Virus record (IMG/VR): IMGVR_UViG_3300042507_004948 | Location: 1 to 21,585 of that record | Reading direction: 5' to 3' (one strand) | Length of the DNA: 21,585 bases | DNA from: a virus | Shown: in pieces, positions 1-4,881 of the stretch | Layout of the letters: every line of letters starts with the position of its first letter | Numbering within the stretch: position 1 is the stretch's first letter | Position numbers and translations under genes: made by a program | The notes under the pieces: model-generated | The model's database searches: none | What the model was told of the DNA's origin: nothing | The model's input: the letters and a program-made list of their open reading frames with translations, nothing else

Positions 1-69
1 AGTTTCGGCGCAATGCGTGGCATTGCTGCAATATTTCTCCGATTTCCCGCAAATCGTGATTATCGGCAC
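1..69 (-). CDS. possible 5' end of an unknown gene running off the left edge
   Basis: A GTG at 69 opens a frame that stays open to the window edge (23 codons). It would encode a start rich in cysteine (ICGK, YCSN, HCAE). There is an in-frame TAG two codons upstream, so the gene could not start earlier in this frame. No convincing Shine-Dalgarno sequence precedes it. A second possibility is an ATG at 23 in another frame, with GGAG about 12 bases upstream. Too little is visible to name a product, and the stretch could be non-coding. Confidence 0.25.
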   Translation of the reverse strand, partial: MPIITICGKSEKYCSNATHCAET

Positions 70-155
70 GGGCTACGCGGCAAACCGCCTACGATCGCGC
101 CTGAGGCGGGGGGCGCTTGACCCCTCCCGACACCCTGCCTCGGCGCTCGGACGGC

Positions 156-812
156 TCAGGCGGGCTTCCCCGCCGCCAGTAGGCCGCGCGCGGCCAAGCC
201 AAACGCGCCCCACCGCTGCCAGAACTCGCCGACAGGCACGGGATTGAGCGGGCGGTTCAGGTCGTCTACCCACTGGCCGTGTTCGTCGCGCGTCTGCTCG
301 TAGTAGCCGTTCGCGGTCGGCGCGGCCCGCGTCCCGCCGCGCAGGAGATCGGAGACGGCGATGAACCACGGAGACGGCCAGTGCTCGGGGTGCGACGGCG
401 GGCGCGGCGCGCCCCACCCGACCAACCGGTCGACGATCTCGCCGACAAGGAGCGGGTTCGCGGTCATCACCAGACGGCGGTCGGCCTCGCGCTCCTCGGC
501 GATCGCGTGCGCGCGCTCGGCGCGCTTCGCCTCGACGAGCTGCGCCTCGCGCGCCTTCGCGGTGCGGTCGACGAGTACGACCTTGCGCGGCTCGGGCTGC
601 GCCTCGTAGTACTTCAGGAACCGCCCCGCGATGAAGCGGCGCTTCTTCCCGCCGTCGTGGAGCGCGTACTGCTCCATCGCGGCCATCGCCCGAATGAAGT
701 CGAGCTGCGCGGCGTGGCGCATCCAGATCGCGCCGATCTCCGCGTGGTCGTCGCCGTCGCCGAAAAGCGCGGCCATCCGACCGCGCAGCGTCGCAAGTTC
801 CTCTTTCGTCAT
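156..812 (-). CDS. unrecognised 218-aa phage protein, possibly replication-related
   Basis: I do not recognise this protein. The ATG at 812 is well supported: AAAGGAGT (819-826) lies about seven bases upstream. The N-terminal third is helical and rich in W, F and Y (IWMRHAAQLDFIRAM, then RRFIAGRFLKYYEAQP). That pattern loosely recalls phage helicase-loader or loading-inhibitor proteins, where a short helical repeat of this kind precedes a disordered tail. This is only a resemblance. Residues about 78-118 are highly charged and probably a helix (KAREAQLVEAKRAERAHAIAEEREADRR). The C-terminal third has several W, P and G residues (HPEHWPSPWF, EFWQRWGAFG). The gene stands alone behind its own promoter (987-1016) and a leader of about 170 bases with a terminator-like hairpin, next to the repeat cluster at 1084-1206. 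That context fits a replication or early regulatory role but does not prove one. Confidence 0.75.
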   Translation of the reverse strand: MTKEELATLRGRMAALFGDGDDHAEIGAIWMRHAAQLDFIRAMAAMEQYALHDGGKKRRFIAGRFLKYYEAQPEPRKVVLVDRTAKAREAQLVEAKRAERAHAIAEEREADRRLVMTANPLLVGEIVDRLVGWGAPRPPSHPEHWPSPWFIAVSDLLRGGTRAAPTANGYYEQTRDEHGQWVDDLNRPLNPVPVGEFWQRWGAFGLAARGLLAAGKPA

Positions 813-880
813 GTGCCGACTCCTTTGTGTGCGGTCGCGCTTCCTGCGCCACCAACTGCGTTACGCACCCGTATCGACTC

Positions 881-914
881 CAAAAACCAAACACACACAC
901 GATAGTGTGTGTGT
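881..914 (-). terminator. leader hairpin with T-rich run: terminator or attenuator
   Basis: On the minus strand a perfect 10-bp stem (ACACACACAC, loop TATC, GTGTGTGTGT; 905-914 with 891-900) is followed at once by TTGGTTTTTGG. This is the form of an intrinsic terminator, though the stem is mixed A/C and G/T and so weaker than GC-rich ones. It lies between the promoter at 987-1016 and the gene starting at 812. It could therefore act as a leader attenuator or an antitermination target rather than a simple end-of-operon signal. Confidence 0.55.
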
Positions 915-980
915 GTCGGGAGTCCGTGTGCGATGTCTCCGAATGGACACGCGTCACCCGTGAAAACCACTTGTTGTGGT

Positions 981-999
981 GGGGGGGTTTTAGGGGGGG
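981..999 (+). other. G-quadruplex-forming G-runs
   Basis: The plus strand reads seven G, TTTTA, seven G. Each run can supply two GGG tracts, so a four-tract quadruplex is possible within 19 bases. A third run of six G follows at 1017-1022. The motif covers the spacer and -10 box of the minus-strand promoter, with G on the template strand, where a folded structure could hinder RNA polymerase or a replication fork. Confidence 0.45.
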
Positions 1000-1016
1000 A
1001 GGATTGCATCTGTCAA
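987..1016 (-). promoter_or_regulatory. sigma70-like promoter for the 156-812 gene
   Basis: On the minus strand a perfect -35 box TTGACA (1016-1011) is followed by an 18-base spacer and TAAAAC (992-987, 4 of 6 to TATAAT). Transcription would start near 980 and give a leader of about 168 bases before the ATG at 812. The spacer contains a run of seven C, the complement of the G-quadruplex motif. Confidence 0.6.
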
Positions 1017-1083
1017 GGGGGGAAAGTGGTCGGATTTCTGACTATGCATCAAATAGGTGGATATGCAGCGGAGGCGATTGCGC

Positions 1084-1099
1084 AAGTTGTGATTGCAGT
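1084..1099 (+). repeat. direct copy of the AAGTTGTG(A)TTGCAGT repeat
   Basis: AAGTTGTGATTGCAGT matches the arms of the inverted repeat at 1159-1196 except for one extra A. It continues into TTGCGTTGCAA (1099-1109), whose exact reverse complement is at 1196-1206. The copies look like binding sites (iterons or operators) for a phage protein. Confidence 0.7.
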
Positions 1100-1158
1100 T
1101 GCGTTGCAATTGCGTTTCGTGCAACCGATATAACTCCCTGCATGGCAGGCGCTTGCGG

Positions 1159-1196
1159 AAGTTGTGTTGCAGTGGAACACAACTGCAACACAACTT
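1159..1196. repeat. perfect 15-bp inverted repeat
   Basis: AAGTTGTGTTGCAGT (1159-1173) and its exact reverse complement (1182-1196) are separated by the eight bases GGAACACA. Each arm is a copy of the repeat also found at 1084-1099. On the minus strand there is no T-run directly after it, so it reads better as a protein-binding or origin element than as a terminator. Confidence 0.85.
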
Positions 1197-1207
1197 TGCA
1201 ACGCAAA

Positions 1208-1240
1208 GGGCGGCGACGAGGAACGCCCCCGCCGCCGCCC
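1208..1240 (-). terminator. hairpin after the recT operon
   Basis: On the minus strand, 14 bases after the stop codon at 1255, GGGCGGCG (1240-1233) pairs with CGCCGCCC (1215-1208) across a 17-base loop, and TTTGCGTT follows. It is placed correctly for an intrinsic terminator of the leftward operon. The long loop and short T-run make it a weak example. Confidence 0.4.
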
Positions 1241-1254
1241 GCGCGAATGGTCGA

Positions 1255-1641
1255 TCACCGACGACGATGCCTGAGCGGCAACGCGGCGGCGCGGGTGGAG
1301 ATGACGAGCCGCATGGCGCGGCGCACCAGTTCCGCCCGAAGCACGGGGTCGATCCCCTCCCACCGCAACTCGCGGCGGCGGATCGTGCGCACGGTCACCC
1401 CGAGCCGACGCGCCATGTCGGCGCGGCGCGGCTGTAGGTGGTCTGGCATCGTGTCGAGTACGAGGCCGACCTCAACGATCCCGCGCACCGCGCGCGTCAG
1501 CTCGTCGTCGTCGCGGATGATCCGCGCGACCCGCAGCGATTCGTCGAAGGTATTCGGCCTGAAGACCATCGGGTCTTCCTGCTCAATGCCGAGCGCGATG
1601 CGGATCGCCTCCGCACCTGGCTCGTACGCGCGCTCATGCAC
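1255..1641 (-). CDS. unknown 128-aa protein with a helix-turn-helix-like segment
   Basis: The start is GTG at 1641. It overlaps the upstream stop by eight bases and has a near-perfect AAGGAGG six bases before it, which makes this start much better than any later codon. I do not recognise the family. Residues about 72-95 (RADMARRLGVTVRTIRRRE) read like a helix-turn-helix: short helix, glycine turn, then a helix starting TVRTI. The rest is charged and mostly helical, and the C-terminus ends in basic residues. As the last gene of the recT operon it may be a small DNA-binding or regulatory protein. This rests on the motif alone. Confidence 0.75.
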   Translation of the reverse strand: MHERAYEPGAEAIRIALGIEQEDPMVFRPNTFDESLRVARIIRDDDELTRAVRGIVEVGLVLDTMPDHLQPRRADMARRLGVTVRTIRRRELRWEGIDPVLRAELVRRAMRLVISTRAAALPLRHRRR

Positions 1642-1927
1642 TGGCCACCTCCTTCGGCTCGCGCATCTCCATCGCGACGGCGGGGCCGAACTCGCGGCAG
1701 ACCGACGCGGCGGCGTGGTCGCCCCGCGCCTCCATGATCTCGCCGAGTGCGTCCCGCAGGATCGCGGCTTCGATGCGGCAGTCGTCGGCGGTCGAGACGA
1801 CCCCGCGCGTGCGCGCGCCGAAGTCGCGGATCAGCCATTCGTGGTACAGGCGCGAAACGAGGTCGGTCGCCAGGTAGTCGCCGTTCGGCTTGCGCGGCTT
1901 CTGCTTGATCCCCTTGGGCTTAGGCAT
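1634..1927 (-). CDS. unknown 97-aa protein
   Basis: This is a small protein with a lysine- and proline-rich start (MPKPKGIKQKPRKPNGDY), then a predicted helical body (LVSRLYHEWLIRDFGARTRG and IEAAILRDALGEIMEARG). The ATG at 1927 overlaps the recT stop by eight bases, and the gene overlaps the next gene by eight bases, so all three are probably translated by coupling. A GGTGGAG stretch lies immediately upstream. I recognise no domain. Position beside recT suggests a role in DNA metabolism, without direct evidence. Confidence 0.75.
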   Translation of the reverse strand: MPKPKGIKQKPRKPNGDYLATDLVSRLYHEWLIRDFGARTRGVVSTADDCRIEAAILRDALGEIMEARGDHAAASVCREFGPAVAMEMREPKEVASA

Positions 1928-2795
1928 TCTCCACCCCCGTGATCACGCGCTTCCCCTCCGCTGTGAGCTTCCACCGCACTTCGATGGTGTGGCCAAATGC
2001 CGACTCGGCCTCGAGGCTGTGCATGAGGTCGCCGTCGAGCACGGCGAACGGAGCGTCGCAGCCGTCGACATCGACGCGGTAGATGGTCGTGCCGTTGGGG
2101 CGCTTCACCGCCGAGGCTTGCCACCCGCGCGCGACGAGGGTCAGCGTGCCGCCGCCATGCGGCGCGGGCGCGCGCTCGGCCTGTGGCACTGGCGACAACA
2201 GCGCCTCCGTGTCCGCGCGGCGCTCCTCGCGGGTCGGCGCGGCGGGCGCGGGGAGCGCCTTGCGCGGCGGCGGCGGCGCGTCCTCGACGATCTCCGTCTC
2301 GCCGTGCGCCTCGACATAGACGGGGGCCGCGCCGAGCGCGTCTGGGCAGTGCTGCTTGTAGCCCGCGCTGATGCAGCGGGCGAACAGCATGGCCTTCGGG
2401 TACTTGCGCCAGTTGTCGCCGCCGAGGCCCGCGCGCTTCGCGTCCTCGAGCGTGAACGAGGTGTCGCCAATCGGCTTCCACTTCCCGCCGTCCCGCCCGA
2501 GGAACTCGATGCGGCACTCGGTGTCCGTGGCAACCGATCGGTAGTCGTACTTGCCGCTCCGCTTGATCGCCGCCGCCATCAAGTTTGCCGCAAGGACGGC
2601 CTTTCCCTTGATGATGTGGAGGCCCGCCATCGCGTCGTAGTCGGCGAGGCCCAGGCCGCGCCCGATGATCAGCTTGGCGCACGCCGCCGCCTCGGACTGG
2701 ATGTCGGGGAACATCCCGCTCGCGCGGAAGACCTTGGCGACCGTCATCGGGTCGAGCTGCGCGTGCGGCGCGGGGGTGTGGACGAGATCACTCAT
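1920..2795 (-). CDS. recT: RecT-type single-strand DNA annealing recombinase
   Basis: Phage annealing proteins of the RecT family coat single-stranded DNA and pair it with a complementary strand in replication-linked recombination. The first ~165 residues show the family's pattern: a SGMFPDI segment near 26-32, IIGRGLGL (43-50), the IIKGKAVL stretch (61-68), a KRSGKYDYR segment (78-86), the WKPIGDTSFTLEDAK block (106-120) and WRKYPKAMLFARCIS (129-143) with CPD after it. A proline/alanine-rich linker (about 173-215) leads to a C-terminal domain of about 75 residues that I do not recognise. The ATG at 2795 overlaps the end of the 32-aa gene. No partner exonuclease (RecE or lambda Exo type) or single-strand binding protein is seen in the window. 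The family call is firm. The role of the C-terminal part is unknown. Confidence 0.85.
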   Translation of the reverse strand: MSDLVHTPAPHAQLDPMTVAKVFRASGMFPDIQSEAAACAKLIIGRGLGLADYDAMAGLHIIKGKAVLAANLMAAAIKRSGKYDYRSVATDTECRIEFLGRDGGKWKPIGDTSFTLEDAKRAGLGGDNWRKYPKAMLFARCISAGYKQHCPDALGAAPVYVEAHGETEIVEDAPPPPRKALPAPAAPTREERRADTEALLSPVPQAERAPAPHGGGTLTLVARGWQASAVKRPNGTTIYRVDVDGCDAPFAVLDGDLMHSLEAESAFGHTIEVRWKLTAEGKRVITGVENA

Positions 2796-2886
2796 CGCGC
2801 GCCCCCTTCCCGAACAACGAGGCGACGAGGACAGGGCCGAACACGACGGCGGCCACGACGAGGAAACTCAGGTCATACTCTGGCAT
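2788..2886 (-). CDS. 32-aa single-helix membrane protein
   Basis: The ATG at 2886 follows GGAG by six bases (GGAGTCACCAATG) and opens a 32-codon frame that ends inside the start of recT (ATGAGTGA, eight-base overlap). The peptide has a short acidic start (MPEYD), one hydrophobic stretch of about 19 residues (LSFLVVAAVVFGPVLVASLF) and a charged tail (GKGARDE), so one transmembrane helix is likely. It is the first gene after the leftward promoter. Many phages carry early membrane peptides of this size that alter the host membrane or block superinfection, but nothing here identifies its job. It is too small to be a typical holin. Confidence 0.65.
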   Translation of the reverse strand: MPEYDLSFLVVAAVVFGPVLVASLFGKGARDE

Positions 2887-2893
2887 TGGTGAC

Positions 2894-2942
2894 TCCGATT
2901 GCGCCGCGCGACCTGCGCGGAGCGGACATTTTGTCCGATTGC
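2894..2942 (+). repeat. pair of 9-bp direct repeats TCCGATTGC
   Basis: TCCGATTGC occurs at 2894-2902 and again at 2934-2942, exactly 40 bases apart (about four helical turns). The second copy runs from the edge of the 2923-2937 palindrome up to the -10 region of the leftward promoter. This spacing would put a protein bound at each on the same face of the DNA. Confidence 0.45.
2923..2937. promoter_or_regulatory. palindromic operator candidate CGGACA-TTT-TGTCCG
   Basis: This perfect 15-base odd palindrome has arms of six. It lies where transcription from the leftward promoter would start (about 2936), so a dimeric repressor bound here would block the recT operon. Placement between two divergent promoters is typical of phage early control. 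Confidence 0.55.
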
Positions 2943-2970
2943 ATCATCGGCCATCACGCGGCTGAGTCAA
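2943..2970 (-). promoter_or_regulatory. sigma70-like leftward promoter for the recT operon
   Basis: On the minus strand TTGACT (2970-2965, 5 of 6 to TTGACA) is followed by a 16-base spacer and GATGAT (2948-2943, 4 of 6 to TATAAT). It would give a leader of about 50 bases before the ATG at 2886. The downstream side overlaps the palindrome at 2923-2937. Confidence 0.5.
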
Positions 2971-2982
2971 CAGAAATCCGCG

Positions 2983-3006
2983 ATATTCCGCGAGAACGCG
3001 GTATAT
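2983..3006. promoter_or_regulatory. second operator candidate, overlapping the rightward -10 box
   Basis: ATATTCCGCG (2983-2992) and CGCGGTATAT (2997-3006) form an inverted repeat with one mismatch around AGAA. The right arm overlaps the -10-like TATATT (3002-3007) of the plus-strand gene. A protein bound here would cover that promoter, as expected for autoregulation or a divergent switch. Its sequence differs from the palindrome at 2923, so the two may bind different proteins. Confidence 0.55.
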
Positions 3007-3007
3007 T
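3002..3007 (+). promoter_or_regulatory. -10-like box of the plus-strand gene
   Basis: TATATT (5 of 6 to TATAAT) ends seven bases before the ATG at 3015. That would make the transcript leaderless or nearly so. No good -35 box lies 16-18 bases upstream, so the promoter would be weak or need an activator. Confidence 0.35.
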
Positions 3008-3014
3008 CACTCCA

Positions 3015-3272
3015 ATGCCCGAACAGATTCCGACCAAACTCCGCTCGCGCCGCGTCCGCGTCCATGTCGAGACAACGCTCGTATGCATTCGGCGGATGAA
3101 TATGCAGCGCGACGCGGTGCGCGTCCGCGCGATCGACGAGGTCTCGTGGGAGTCGCTCGACCTCTACACCCTGGCGCTCGACACGGCAGAGGACGACGGG
3201 CTGCGCGCGCTTGTGCTTCAGGCGCGCGGCGCGATTCAGTCCGCGCTACTCACGCGATCAGCGTGTCGCTGA
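3015..3272 (+). CDS. only plus-strand gene: unknown 85-aa protein
   Basis: The frame runs from ATG at 3015 to TGA at 3272 and uses codons rich in G or C at the third position like its neighbours, and no minus-strand gene covers most of the span. The N-terminal half is basic (KLRSRRVRVHVETTLVCIRR). The C-terminal half is acidic then helical (EVSWESLDLYTLALDTAEDDGLRALVLQARGAI). I do not recognise it and see no clear helix-turn-helix. It starts at the divergent control region with an operator-like repeat on its -10 box, which suggests a regulator. Its 3' end overlaps the last gene of the late operon by 23 bases, tail to tail. No ribosome binding site is seen, consistent with a leaderless start. 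Confidence 0.55.
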   Translation: MPEQIPTKLRSRRVRVHVETTLVCIRRMNMQRDAVRVRAIDEVSWESLDLYTLALDTAEDDGLRALVLQARGAIQSALLTRSACR

Positions 3273-4629
3273 TCGTCTCCGTGTTGCTGTAGTTCTGCGG
3301 CAGCGACAGCCCCTTGCCGTACATATCGAACAGCCGATCGAACGCGCGGACGAAATCGCCCTCGTCGTTGTTCGTGAAGGTAAATCTGCCGTTGTCGTCC
3401 GCGCGCCAATCGGTCGACCCGGCAAGCAGGCCAACGGCCTGACCGCCTTGCGCGATCGGGACAAGCTCCGCGAGGATCACCTCGTCGATGTACGCCGCCG
3501 CCGTCGTCAGGGCGGTCGTGCTTTCGATGTGCAGATAGGTGTCCTGCGGGATGTTGCGCGGCGACCTAATCGTGATGGAGGAAATCGTCCACGATGTCGA
3601 ACCGCTCGTCAGCGTGAGACTGCTCGCGAACGCGCCCGAGTCGATGATGTTACCCGACCCGTCCTTGACGCTGATTCGGATGACGCCAGTGCAGCCTGTG
3701 TCGATCTTGTACGCGACCGCGATCACATACGGCCTGTCGGGCGTGAGCCGCCCGAGCGTGCCGCCTGACGCGCCGAGCTGCTGGCGAATGTTGAACGCGC
3801 CGCTGCCCGCGTTCAGCTTGATCGACCGCGCGCCACGGTAGAAGGTTCCCGTCTCCGTCTGGAACTGCGTGCCCGCCGTGCCAGTGACGACCGCCCATTG
3901 GTCGGGGAGGTTGCTCGTCTGATCCTCAAAGTCGCTGTTCGTAAGTTGGTTCTCGTAGATGCCGCCCGCGTCGATCGCAGCGGAGACGGACACGACCCGC
4001 GTGAGCGTGCCGCTGCCCGCAGGGAAGCGGTAATCGAGCGGAGCGTACGCGGGCTGACCGCGAATCTCGAACACCTCCGCGCCGCGCGAGATCGCGCCGT
4101 TTGCCGCGTCCTGCACGCACCGCGCCTCGAGCGTCTCCGTGCGCACATTCGGCCAGTCGTTGGTCGACCCGAGCAGGATGTTCGGCGCGTCGAAGTTGTA
4201 CACGAACTGTCCGTTTCCGACATTCGTCCCGCCGTAGGTCGCGCTGGACTTCGTGATCGTCGTGCCGTTGATCTTCTCCGAGTCCGCGTCCATCTGGCGG
4301 ATGAGCCAGACCAGCGCGTCGGTGATCTGCCGCGACCGCATCGTGTTCGCCGCGCCCGAGGTGTTGGCCTCGGTGAAGCACATTTCGATGATCGTGCGCT
4401 CGGCGGCGGCGCGGACATCGTTGAGCACGCCGCCCGCCTCGGCGATGCGGCGCTCGATGTTGCCCGCAAGCACCTCGATCATGTACGCGTCGGTCGATGA
4501 GTACTCGAGCTGCACATTCGCAAGGAGCGTCTTCAGGTTGAGCTGATGCGTGCGCACCGCGTCCATCATGTAGACGAGCACGCCGAGCCGCGTGAATAGT
4601 CCGTTCGAGCCGTCGTAGGTGAGCGCCAT
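3250..4629 (-). CDS. virion surface protein with a carbohydrate-binding-like domain
   Basis: This 459-residue protein is the last gene of the late operon. Residues 1-225 begin with a segment seen in phage virion proteins (LFTRLGVLVYMMDAV) and a helical region. Residues about 226-390 look like a beta-sandwich carbohydrate-binding module of the CBM4/9 type: NQLTNSDFED, then QWAVV, GARSIKLNAGSG, PYVIAVAYK, GVIRISVKDGSGN and YIDEVILAEL. The last 60 residues (DFVRAFDRLFDMYGKGLSLPQN) resemble the N-terminal part in style, so the module may be an insertion. Position at the end of the tail genes fits a host-surface-binding protein on the tail tip or head, by inference. The ATG at 4629 lies three bases after the previous stop. 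Confidence 0.75.
   Translation of the reverse strand: MALTYDGSNGLFTRLGVLVYMMDAVRTHQLNLKTLLANVQLEYSSTDAYMIEVLAGNIERRIAEAGGVLNDVRAAAERTIIEMCFTEANTSGAANTMRSRQITDALVWLIRQMDADSEKINGTTITKSSATYGGTNVGNGQFVYNFDAPNILLGSTNDWPNVRTETLEARCVQDAANGAISRGAEVFEIRGQPAYAPLDYRFPAGSGTLTRVVSVSAAIDAGGIYENQLTNSDFEDQTSNLPDQWAVVTGTAGTQFQTETGTFYRGARSIKLNAGSGAFNIRQQLGASGGTLGRLTPDRPYVIAVAYKIDTGCTGVIRISVKDGSGNIIDSGAFASSLTLTSGSTSWTISSITIRSPRNIPQDTYLHIESTTALTTAAAYIDEVILAELVPIAQGGQAVGLLAGSTDWRADDNGRFTFTNNDEGDFVRAFDRLFDMYGKGLSLPQNYSNTETISDTLIA
3255..3275. terminator. perfect hairpin at the convergent gene ends
   Basis: CGATCAGCG (3255-3263) and CGCTGATCG (3267-3275) form a nine-bp stem with a TGT loop. The hairpin sits in the overlap of the two convergent genes, and the plus-strand stop codon (3270-3272) is in its right arm. 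Being symmetric it could work on both strands. Neither side has a clear T-run, so it may instead be a 3'-end stabiliser or just coding sequence. Confidence 0.4.
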
Positions 4630-4632
4630 AGG

Positions 4633-4881
4633 TCAGTCCTCTGTGTGTGTATCGGGCATCGGGAGGAGCCTGTTCAGCGCGGCGCGTCGGCGCGCGCAGC
4701 CGCCGCAGTCTCCGACCACGCGCGCGATGCCCGTGGCCTTCGCGGCGGCGTGGACGATGTCGCCCGCGCCGCGCGGCGCTCCGTGGTAGCGCGGGCACGC
4801 GGCGCACCGATCGGCGCTCGTCTCGCCGCCGAGTTCGGGGTGGCGGCACTTCGCCGCGACATCGAAGATGCACCTAGGCAA
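4633..4881 (-). CDS. small six-cysteine phage protein, probable zinc binding
   Basis: This 82-residue protein has cysteines at 4, 12, 26, 29, 59 and 62, including two CxxC pairs, so it may bind zinc. The second half (RGAGDIVHAAAKATGI, then CGGCARRRAALNRLLP) matches a pattern common in small phage proteins of unknown function that lie among tail genes: a GD.V segment, K.TGI, C..C, RR..LN, then P. The start appears to be TTG at 4881, because an in-frame stop lies two codons upstream and no ATG or GTG follows nearby. It overlaps the preceding gene by eight bases. No function can be assigned. Confidence 0.7.
   Translation of the reverse strand: MPRCIFDVAAKCRHPELGGETSADRCAACPRYHGAPRGAGDIVHAAAKATGIARVVGDCGGCARRRAALNRLLPMPDTHTED

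Follow-up and report, generated by a model that had tools for sequence, protein, structure and literature searches.

A putative control region with divergent promoters, a probable operator dyad and a repeated leader hairpin in uncultured tailed phages

The 128 bases at positions 2887-3014 of the sequence analyzed here (the window, which is a whole IMG/VR record of 21,585 bases) appear to serve as the principal control region in a family of uncultured tailed phages, with two promoters placed back to back. The best explanation overall, which we hold with moderate confidence, combines a repressor-controlled master promoter with a hairpin in the 5' leader of its transcript that is repeated elsewhere in the genomes. 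The operator and divergent-promoter parts of this explanation rest on position and co-occurrence, and the hairpin part on covariation and repetition. RNA polymerase would start leftward from TTGACT-N16-GATGAT at ~2936 and rightward from TATATT at ~3014, the latter yielding the mRNA of an 85-aa protein. A dimeric regulator bound to a dyad at the leftward start point (dyad A) would block leftward initiation and, because both promoters share upstream DNA, would leave the rightward promoter free or favour it. The 128-aa helix-turn-helix (HTH) product of the leftward operon would repress its own promoter in a Cro-like negative feedback, and a second element, hairpin B, lying between the start point and the ribosome-binding site, would set translation or stability of the mRNAs. 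The genes of the window are oriented leftward throughout with the 85-aa gene as the sole exception, and this region would govern a long leftward transcription unit.

Predicted divergent promoters and the genes they serve

The features of the region and of the adjoining genes are:

1255-1641, minus strand: 128-aa protein with a predicted HTH (helices 73-80 and 84-95; AlphaFold2 pLDDT 87), the best candidate reader of dyad A
1920-2795, minus strand: RecT-like single-strand annealing protein (PHROG 561, E 2e-14)
2788-2886, minus strand: 32-aa membrane-helix-like ORF, first gene of the operon, with a homologous start MP(E/D)..D.. in clade-1 relatives
2893-2896, minus strand: ribosome-binding site GGAG, 7 nt past hairpin B and preserved in relatives
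2904-2920, minus strand: leader hairpin B, CCGCGC-AGGUC-GCGCGG, with a pentaloop R-N-G-N-N closed by C-G; identified by covariation, model match at 2902-2922 minus
2923-2937, no strand assigned: dyad A, CGGACA-TTT-TGTCCG, probable operator at +1 of the leftward transcript
2943-2970, minus strand: leftward promoter, -35 TTGACT (2970-2965), spacer of 16, -10 GATGAT (2948-2943), predicted start ~2936
3002-3007, plus strand: rightward -10 box TATATT, 7 nt upstream of the ATG, predicted start ~3014
3015-3272, plus strand: 85-aa helical protein, the sole rightward gene, conserved in all clades

The window comprises a block of terminase, portal, capsid and tail genes together with the 85-aa gene and the RecT operon. 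It was compared with ~50 related uncultured phage contigs; 36 viral loci were recovered with the 85-aa gene and further loci were added via the 128-aa gene. The closest fetched relative, G001 (35.4 kb), has an identical gene layout and carries the same 140-aa gene at either end, suggesting that the genome is circularly permuted and close to complete. G001 also encodes a ParB-like/DNA methyltransferase fusion and a Mu Gam-like end-protection protein (L102 11037-12494, L103 3588-4106). In L101 (3027-3941) and L122, from clades 2 and 3, RecT is missing and its place is occupied by an unrelated, annealing-protein-like ORF. No relatives or prophages of the window's kind were found in ~85,000 bacterial and archaeal (GTDB) genomes, and the matches of RecT and TerL in named phages were too distant to assign a host.

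The leftward TTGACT/GATGAT promoter proposed in a first-pass annotation of this DNA lies on the minus strand where it had been placed. It is the sole promoter-like site in positions 1-4700, where 0.4 would be expected, and its hexamers and spacing are kept in L066, L067, L070 and L072, which share with the window the form TTGACT-N16-GAT(GAT/ACT). Furthermore, the CGAT of the -10 region is preserved in nearly all relatives. The 32-aa ORF downstream overlaps the start of RecT and is conserved as the operon's first gene in clade 1. On the rightward side, TATATT, TACACT or TACAAT occurs at a similar distance in clade-1 relatives; the distance from box to start codon is 7-9 nt in several lineages of clade 1 and 22 nt in L093-L095. 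Because only 7 nt separate it from the ATG in the window, the 85-aa mRNA is probably leaderless. At its far end the 85-aa gene converges with a 459-aa gene, and their 3' ends overlap at 3250-3272.

The lone rightward gene had been described as encoding a protein without a clear helix-turn-helix, and family searches agreed, detecting no HTH and no DNA- or RNA-binding or other family match. The fold of the 85-aa protein is predicted to be all-helical (pLDDT 88.9), with a basic, conserved start in which K8, R12 and R13 lie in a helix. Foldseek returned nothing with an E below 1. YmgB led the VIA list at Z 5.5, a value too weak for a helical bundle, and a YmgB/AriR-like assignment was rejected. 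Searches of PDB sequences with profiles of the 85-aa and 128-aa proteins gave chance matches only.

Every string named in the first-pass annotation is present in the region at its reported position. In dinucleotide shuffles of the 128 bases, however, at least one perfect 6-bp palindrome arose in 19%, at least one 10-bp arm with one mismatch in 3.6% and at least one repeated 9-mer in 5.8%. As such features of a single sequence are not rare in shuffles, the evidence must come from relatives, and here the two palindromes that had been reported part ways: palindrome 1, our dyad A, is conserved in related phages, whereas palindrome 2 (ATATTCCGCG-AGAA-CGCGGTATAT at 2983-3006, 9/10 pairs) is not. The latter is disrupted in L066 (where it reads GATATTCCGCGATTTGCCTGTATAT) and in L005, although their 85-aa proteins are 96-99% identical and the TATATT -10 box persists. 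Lost in the nearest relative, palindrome 2 was set aside as a chance feature. The 9-base direct repeat TCCGATTGC, with copies at 2894 and 2934 and thus the 40-base spacing that had been pointed out, is likewise gone even in the closest relative and was rejected as a functional element.

Dyad A and its candidate regulators

The palindrome at the leftward start point proved to be conserved across relatives, with covarying flanks. Its core, GAC-N5-GTC, is identical in all 30 of the 30 aligned loci that possess the dyad. Positions +-6 and +-7 are always Watson-Crick paired and change together (G-C or T-A; C-G, A-T or G-C), giving 2-3 pair types per position and no G-U. The dyad was found throughout the window's clade except in one phage, and in a second clade, and in every lineage it begins 5-8 nt past the -10 box. 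It occurs where the 85-aa gene is present, and none of 41 loci carrying a similar RecT without the 85-aa gene contained it; L076, which has the 85-aa gene, has lost it. From these observations we infer that dyad A is probably a DNA operator bound by a repressor. Since dyad A, lying where the transcript begins, can also fold into a hairpin as RNA, and the clade 2 dyad is itself the stem of hairpin B, the RNA and DNA roles of the dyad are not cleanly separated.

When the palindrome was sought elsewhere in the genomes, as had been proposed, GACA-N3-TGTC proved mostly single, and extra copies appear at about the chance rate except at the 85-aa start of L093-L095, where an exact second dyad, CGGACAAAATGTCAG, spans the start codon. 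The window holds one probable operator, and three related groups have a second site, weaker or exact. Additional GACA-N3-TATC half-palindromes lie 17-19 bp from dyad A in three groups.

It had been suggested that the regulator might be encoded elsewhere, and the 128-aa protein, whose gene sits at the far end of the leftward operon, supports this, as it has a predicted HTH with a recognition helix that tracks the dyad. Its predicted structure may be related in fold to DnaA domain IV (3pvp_A, aligned over 85 residues at Z 8.1; Foldseek E above 1) and, at Z 4.9, to TrpR; no Pfam or PHROG model matched this HTH family. Twenty residues are invariant among 17 dyad-bearing 128-aa sequences, and the only one altered in both of the dyad-less loci found first, L076 and L101, is R89 in the recognition helix (R89I and R89S, respectively). 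Further, held-out loci were fetched using only the 128-aa protein. Of these, L122-L124 retain both R-T-x-x-R-R and the dyad, and in six groups (L126, L128, L142-L150, L149, L153/L154 and L155) the motif [RK]-T-x-x-R-[RK] has been lost and the promoter carries no dyad; the motif was widened to this form after inspection of L126 and L128, both of which retain R89. Mapped onto a tree built from the adjacent 459-aa protein, the dyad undergoes just two changes, and with about two independent changes the match between recognition helix and dyad is suggestive but falls short of proof. Moreover, L093 and L094 differ symmetrically at +-6 despite almost identical regulators, which counts against the proposed explanation. 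On balance this protein is most likely the regulator at dyad A, and a small HTH family would thereby be linked to a defined operator.

Less probably, the 85-aa protein is itself the regulator, acting as a non-HTH DNA-binding repressor or as an arginine-rich reader of hairpin B in the manner of N and boxB. Its gene adjoins the control region in all clades, its basic helix residues are conserved, and the exact second dyad of L093-L095 lies at its own start codon; co-occurring universally, this protein is tied to the control region as well, in a family from which no phage has been cultured. The weak likeness to the small regulator YmgB/AriR points the same way. The 85-aa gene of L076 also leaves room for this reading, since, like the 128-aa gene, it differs from that of the sister phage L075. 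Against this stand the lack of any DNA- or RNA-binding family match or Foldseek match in the searches above, and invariant residues that are unchanged (bar I74L) in the dyad-less L076. That dyad A serves a host regulator instead of a phage protein is unlikely: its flanks differ between near-identical phages, and between L075 and L076, sisters by their 459-aa protein, the 85-aa gene, the 128-aa gene and the dyad all differ, as if the whole regulatory block had been exchanged in the way of phage immunity modules.

Hairpin B in the leftward leader

Hairpin B escaped the first-pass annotation and adjoins dyad A in the leftward RNA. MAFFT alignment of whole leaders misaligned it, and loop-anchored alignments of fixed length were therefore used. 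In these alignments, which were anchored by hand and are biased towards the structure, the six pairs are 98.7% kept in 13 clade-1 sequences, with 21 double-change cells, and 96.2% paired in 26 distinct sequences from all clades, with 54 double-change cells; the covariation score for the 26 sequences was 0.864, compared to 0.239 when shuffled, and sliding the pairing gave 0.19 or less. Neither the C-G pair that closes the loop nor the G at loop position three varies, and the loop in the 26 sequences is described by R-N-G-R-N. The pairs include U-G in the leftward sense, which on the opposite strand would give A-C mismatches. Clade 1 has two stem-loops, one from dyad A and one from hairpin B, whereas clades 2 and 3 have one hairpin each: in clade 2 hairpin B (GCGGAC-ACGGU-GUCCGC) and the dyad are one stem, and in clade 3 hairpin B stands alone.

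A covariance model identified further copies in near-complete genomes, situated just 5' of ribosome-binding sites of other gene clusters, at only ~1-4 per genome (2-4 in near-complete relatives) and on the sense strand only. When all copies at the leftward promoter, from which the element had been discovered, were left out, 15 of 81 hairpin B-type hairpins preceded an SD-start compared to 50 of 1125 other hairpins (odds ratio 4.9, p 1e-5, a p-value that serves as a guide only because the 12 records tested are related). No copy preceded an SD-start on the opposite strand of these 12 records, four control motifs showed no such enrichment, and Rfam gave nothing above its gathering score. Taken together, hairpin B would be an RNA element of a start-associated type, separate from dyad A and located in the 5' leader. 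Its likeliest role is control of translation or stability. As it is reused before several gene clusters, its loop is probably read by a common factor, of phage or host, or by the ribosome or RNase machinery. The 218-aa gene of the window has a leader of the same plan (812-876), with a leftward CGATAC at 876-871, a hairpin GCGC-AGGAA-GCGC at 849-837 whose stem is just 4 bp, GGAG at 823-820 and the ATG at 812.

A fixed loop on a freely covarying stem points to RNA recognition and offers a concrete, testable signal. We tentatively suggest, while regarding it as somewhat doubtful, that these phages have a phage-wide post-transcriptional regulon with hairpin B as its recognition element; one RNA-binding factor, perhaps the 85-aa protein, would read the C-G-closed R-N-G-R-N pentaloop in several leaders and so coordinate translation, stability or antitermination. 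In phage lambda, boxB in the early leader is a pentaloop hairpin, GNRA-like, that is bound by the arginine-rich motif of N. The phages studied here likewise have a pentaloop hairpin in an early leader and a small arginine-rich phage protein encoded nearby; however, their loop is R-N-G-R-N and not GNRA-like, the protein gene is divergent, and no boxA was seen.

The main rival to translation or stability control is antitermination, with dyad A and hairpin B forming a tandem RNA like the HK022 put sites that would modify RNA polymerase and let it pass terminators; put RNA antiterminates via the beta' zinc-binding domain. putL, just downstream of PL, consists of two stem-loops (PMC9378689), and in at least 12 distinct clade-1 sequences the leftward RNA opens with two stem-loops separated by 0-6 nt, a 5'-terminal position comparable to that of the HK022 putL and putR stem-loops in an early transcript; nearly all genes lie downstream in one direction, so that the transcript heads most of the genome. 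We nevertheless consider this reading quite improbable. put RNA is ~70 nt with two long stems (PMC9378689), whereas the clade-1 stems are short and regular, of 6-8 pairs, not long and interrupted, and span ~45 nt together; clades 2 and 3 have a single hairpin, nothing in Rfam matched, and the recurrence of hairpin B right before ribosome-binding sites fits a role in translation or stability better.

Comparison with known systems and neighbouring features

Since 2011 mycobacteriophages have been known to carry repeated, dyad-containing elements at gene starts, to which no function is assigned. In cluster K mycobacteriophages, SAS and ESAS recur where translation of several non-structural genes begins; ESAS are imperfect 17-bp inverted repeats of conserved sequence with a 4-13 bp spacer, beside the 13-bp GGGATAGGAGCCC (PMC3203893). 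Hairpin B is also a dyad element repeated at translation starts within one genome. It differs in that its stem is free and covarying while the 5-nt loop and closing pair are fixed, which argues that the conserved entity here is an RNA hairpin. Furthermore, GGGATAGGAGCCC had no match at two or fewer mismatches in five records, and a single chance-like match with three mismatches in the window. With the 13-mer absent, the stem free and the loop fixed, hairpin B is not a member of the SAS/ESAS family.

The region had been read as having the layout of a genetic switch. The divergent control region, the leftward promoter and a regulatory dyad at its start hold up, whereas a lysis/lysogeny switch is unsupported because searches of 21 related records, some of which are fragments, turned up neither a tyrosine nor a serine integrase. 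Like lambda and PY54, these phages have predicted divergent promoters, a probable palindromic operator between them with varying peripheral pairs, and an expected leaderless rightward mRNA (PMC4488713). In lambda-type CI/Cro systems divergent HTH repressor genes flank the operator, which is present in several copies between the promoters; here the flanking rightward 85-aa protein is not an HTH repressor, the 128-aa HTH protein is encoded at the far end of the operon, and there is usually one full dyad, with the second site noted above in three related groups. Given the missing integrase, the lack of an HTH_3 match above its cut-off in the related records searched and the lack of prophages in the GTDB genomes, a lambda-like switch is very improbable.

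Two further non-coding features lie close to the operon. The stretch at 1064-1206, which adjoins the 128-aa gene, is rich in inverted repeats, among them TTGCGTTGCAA/TTGCAACGCAA and a perfect 15-nt pair AAGTTGTGTTGCAGT; these repeats are shared with L005 only, and not with L013, L061 or L007, and the stretch is a possible replication origin, to which the 128-aa protein may bind. At 890-917 a leftward, terminator-like (CA)n/(TG)n hairpin is followed by T-rich sequence, and L013, L061 and L007 have comparable CA/TG hairpins in the interval that separates the 128-aa gene from the 218-aa gene.
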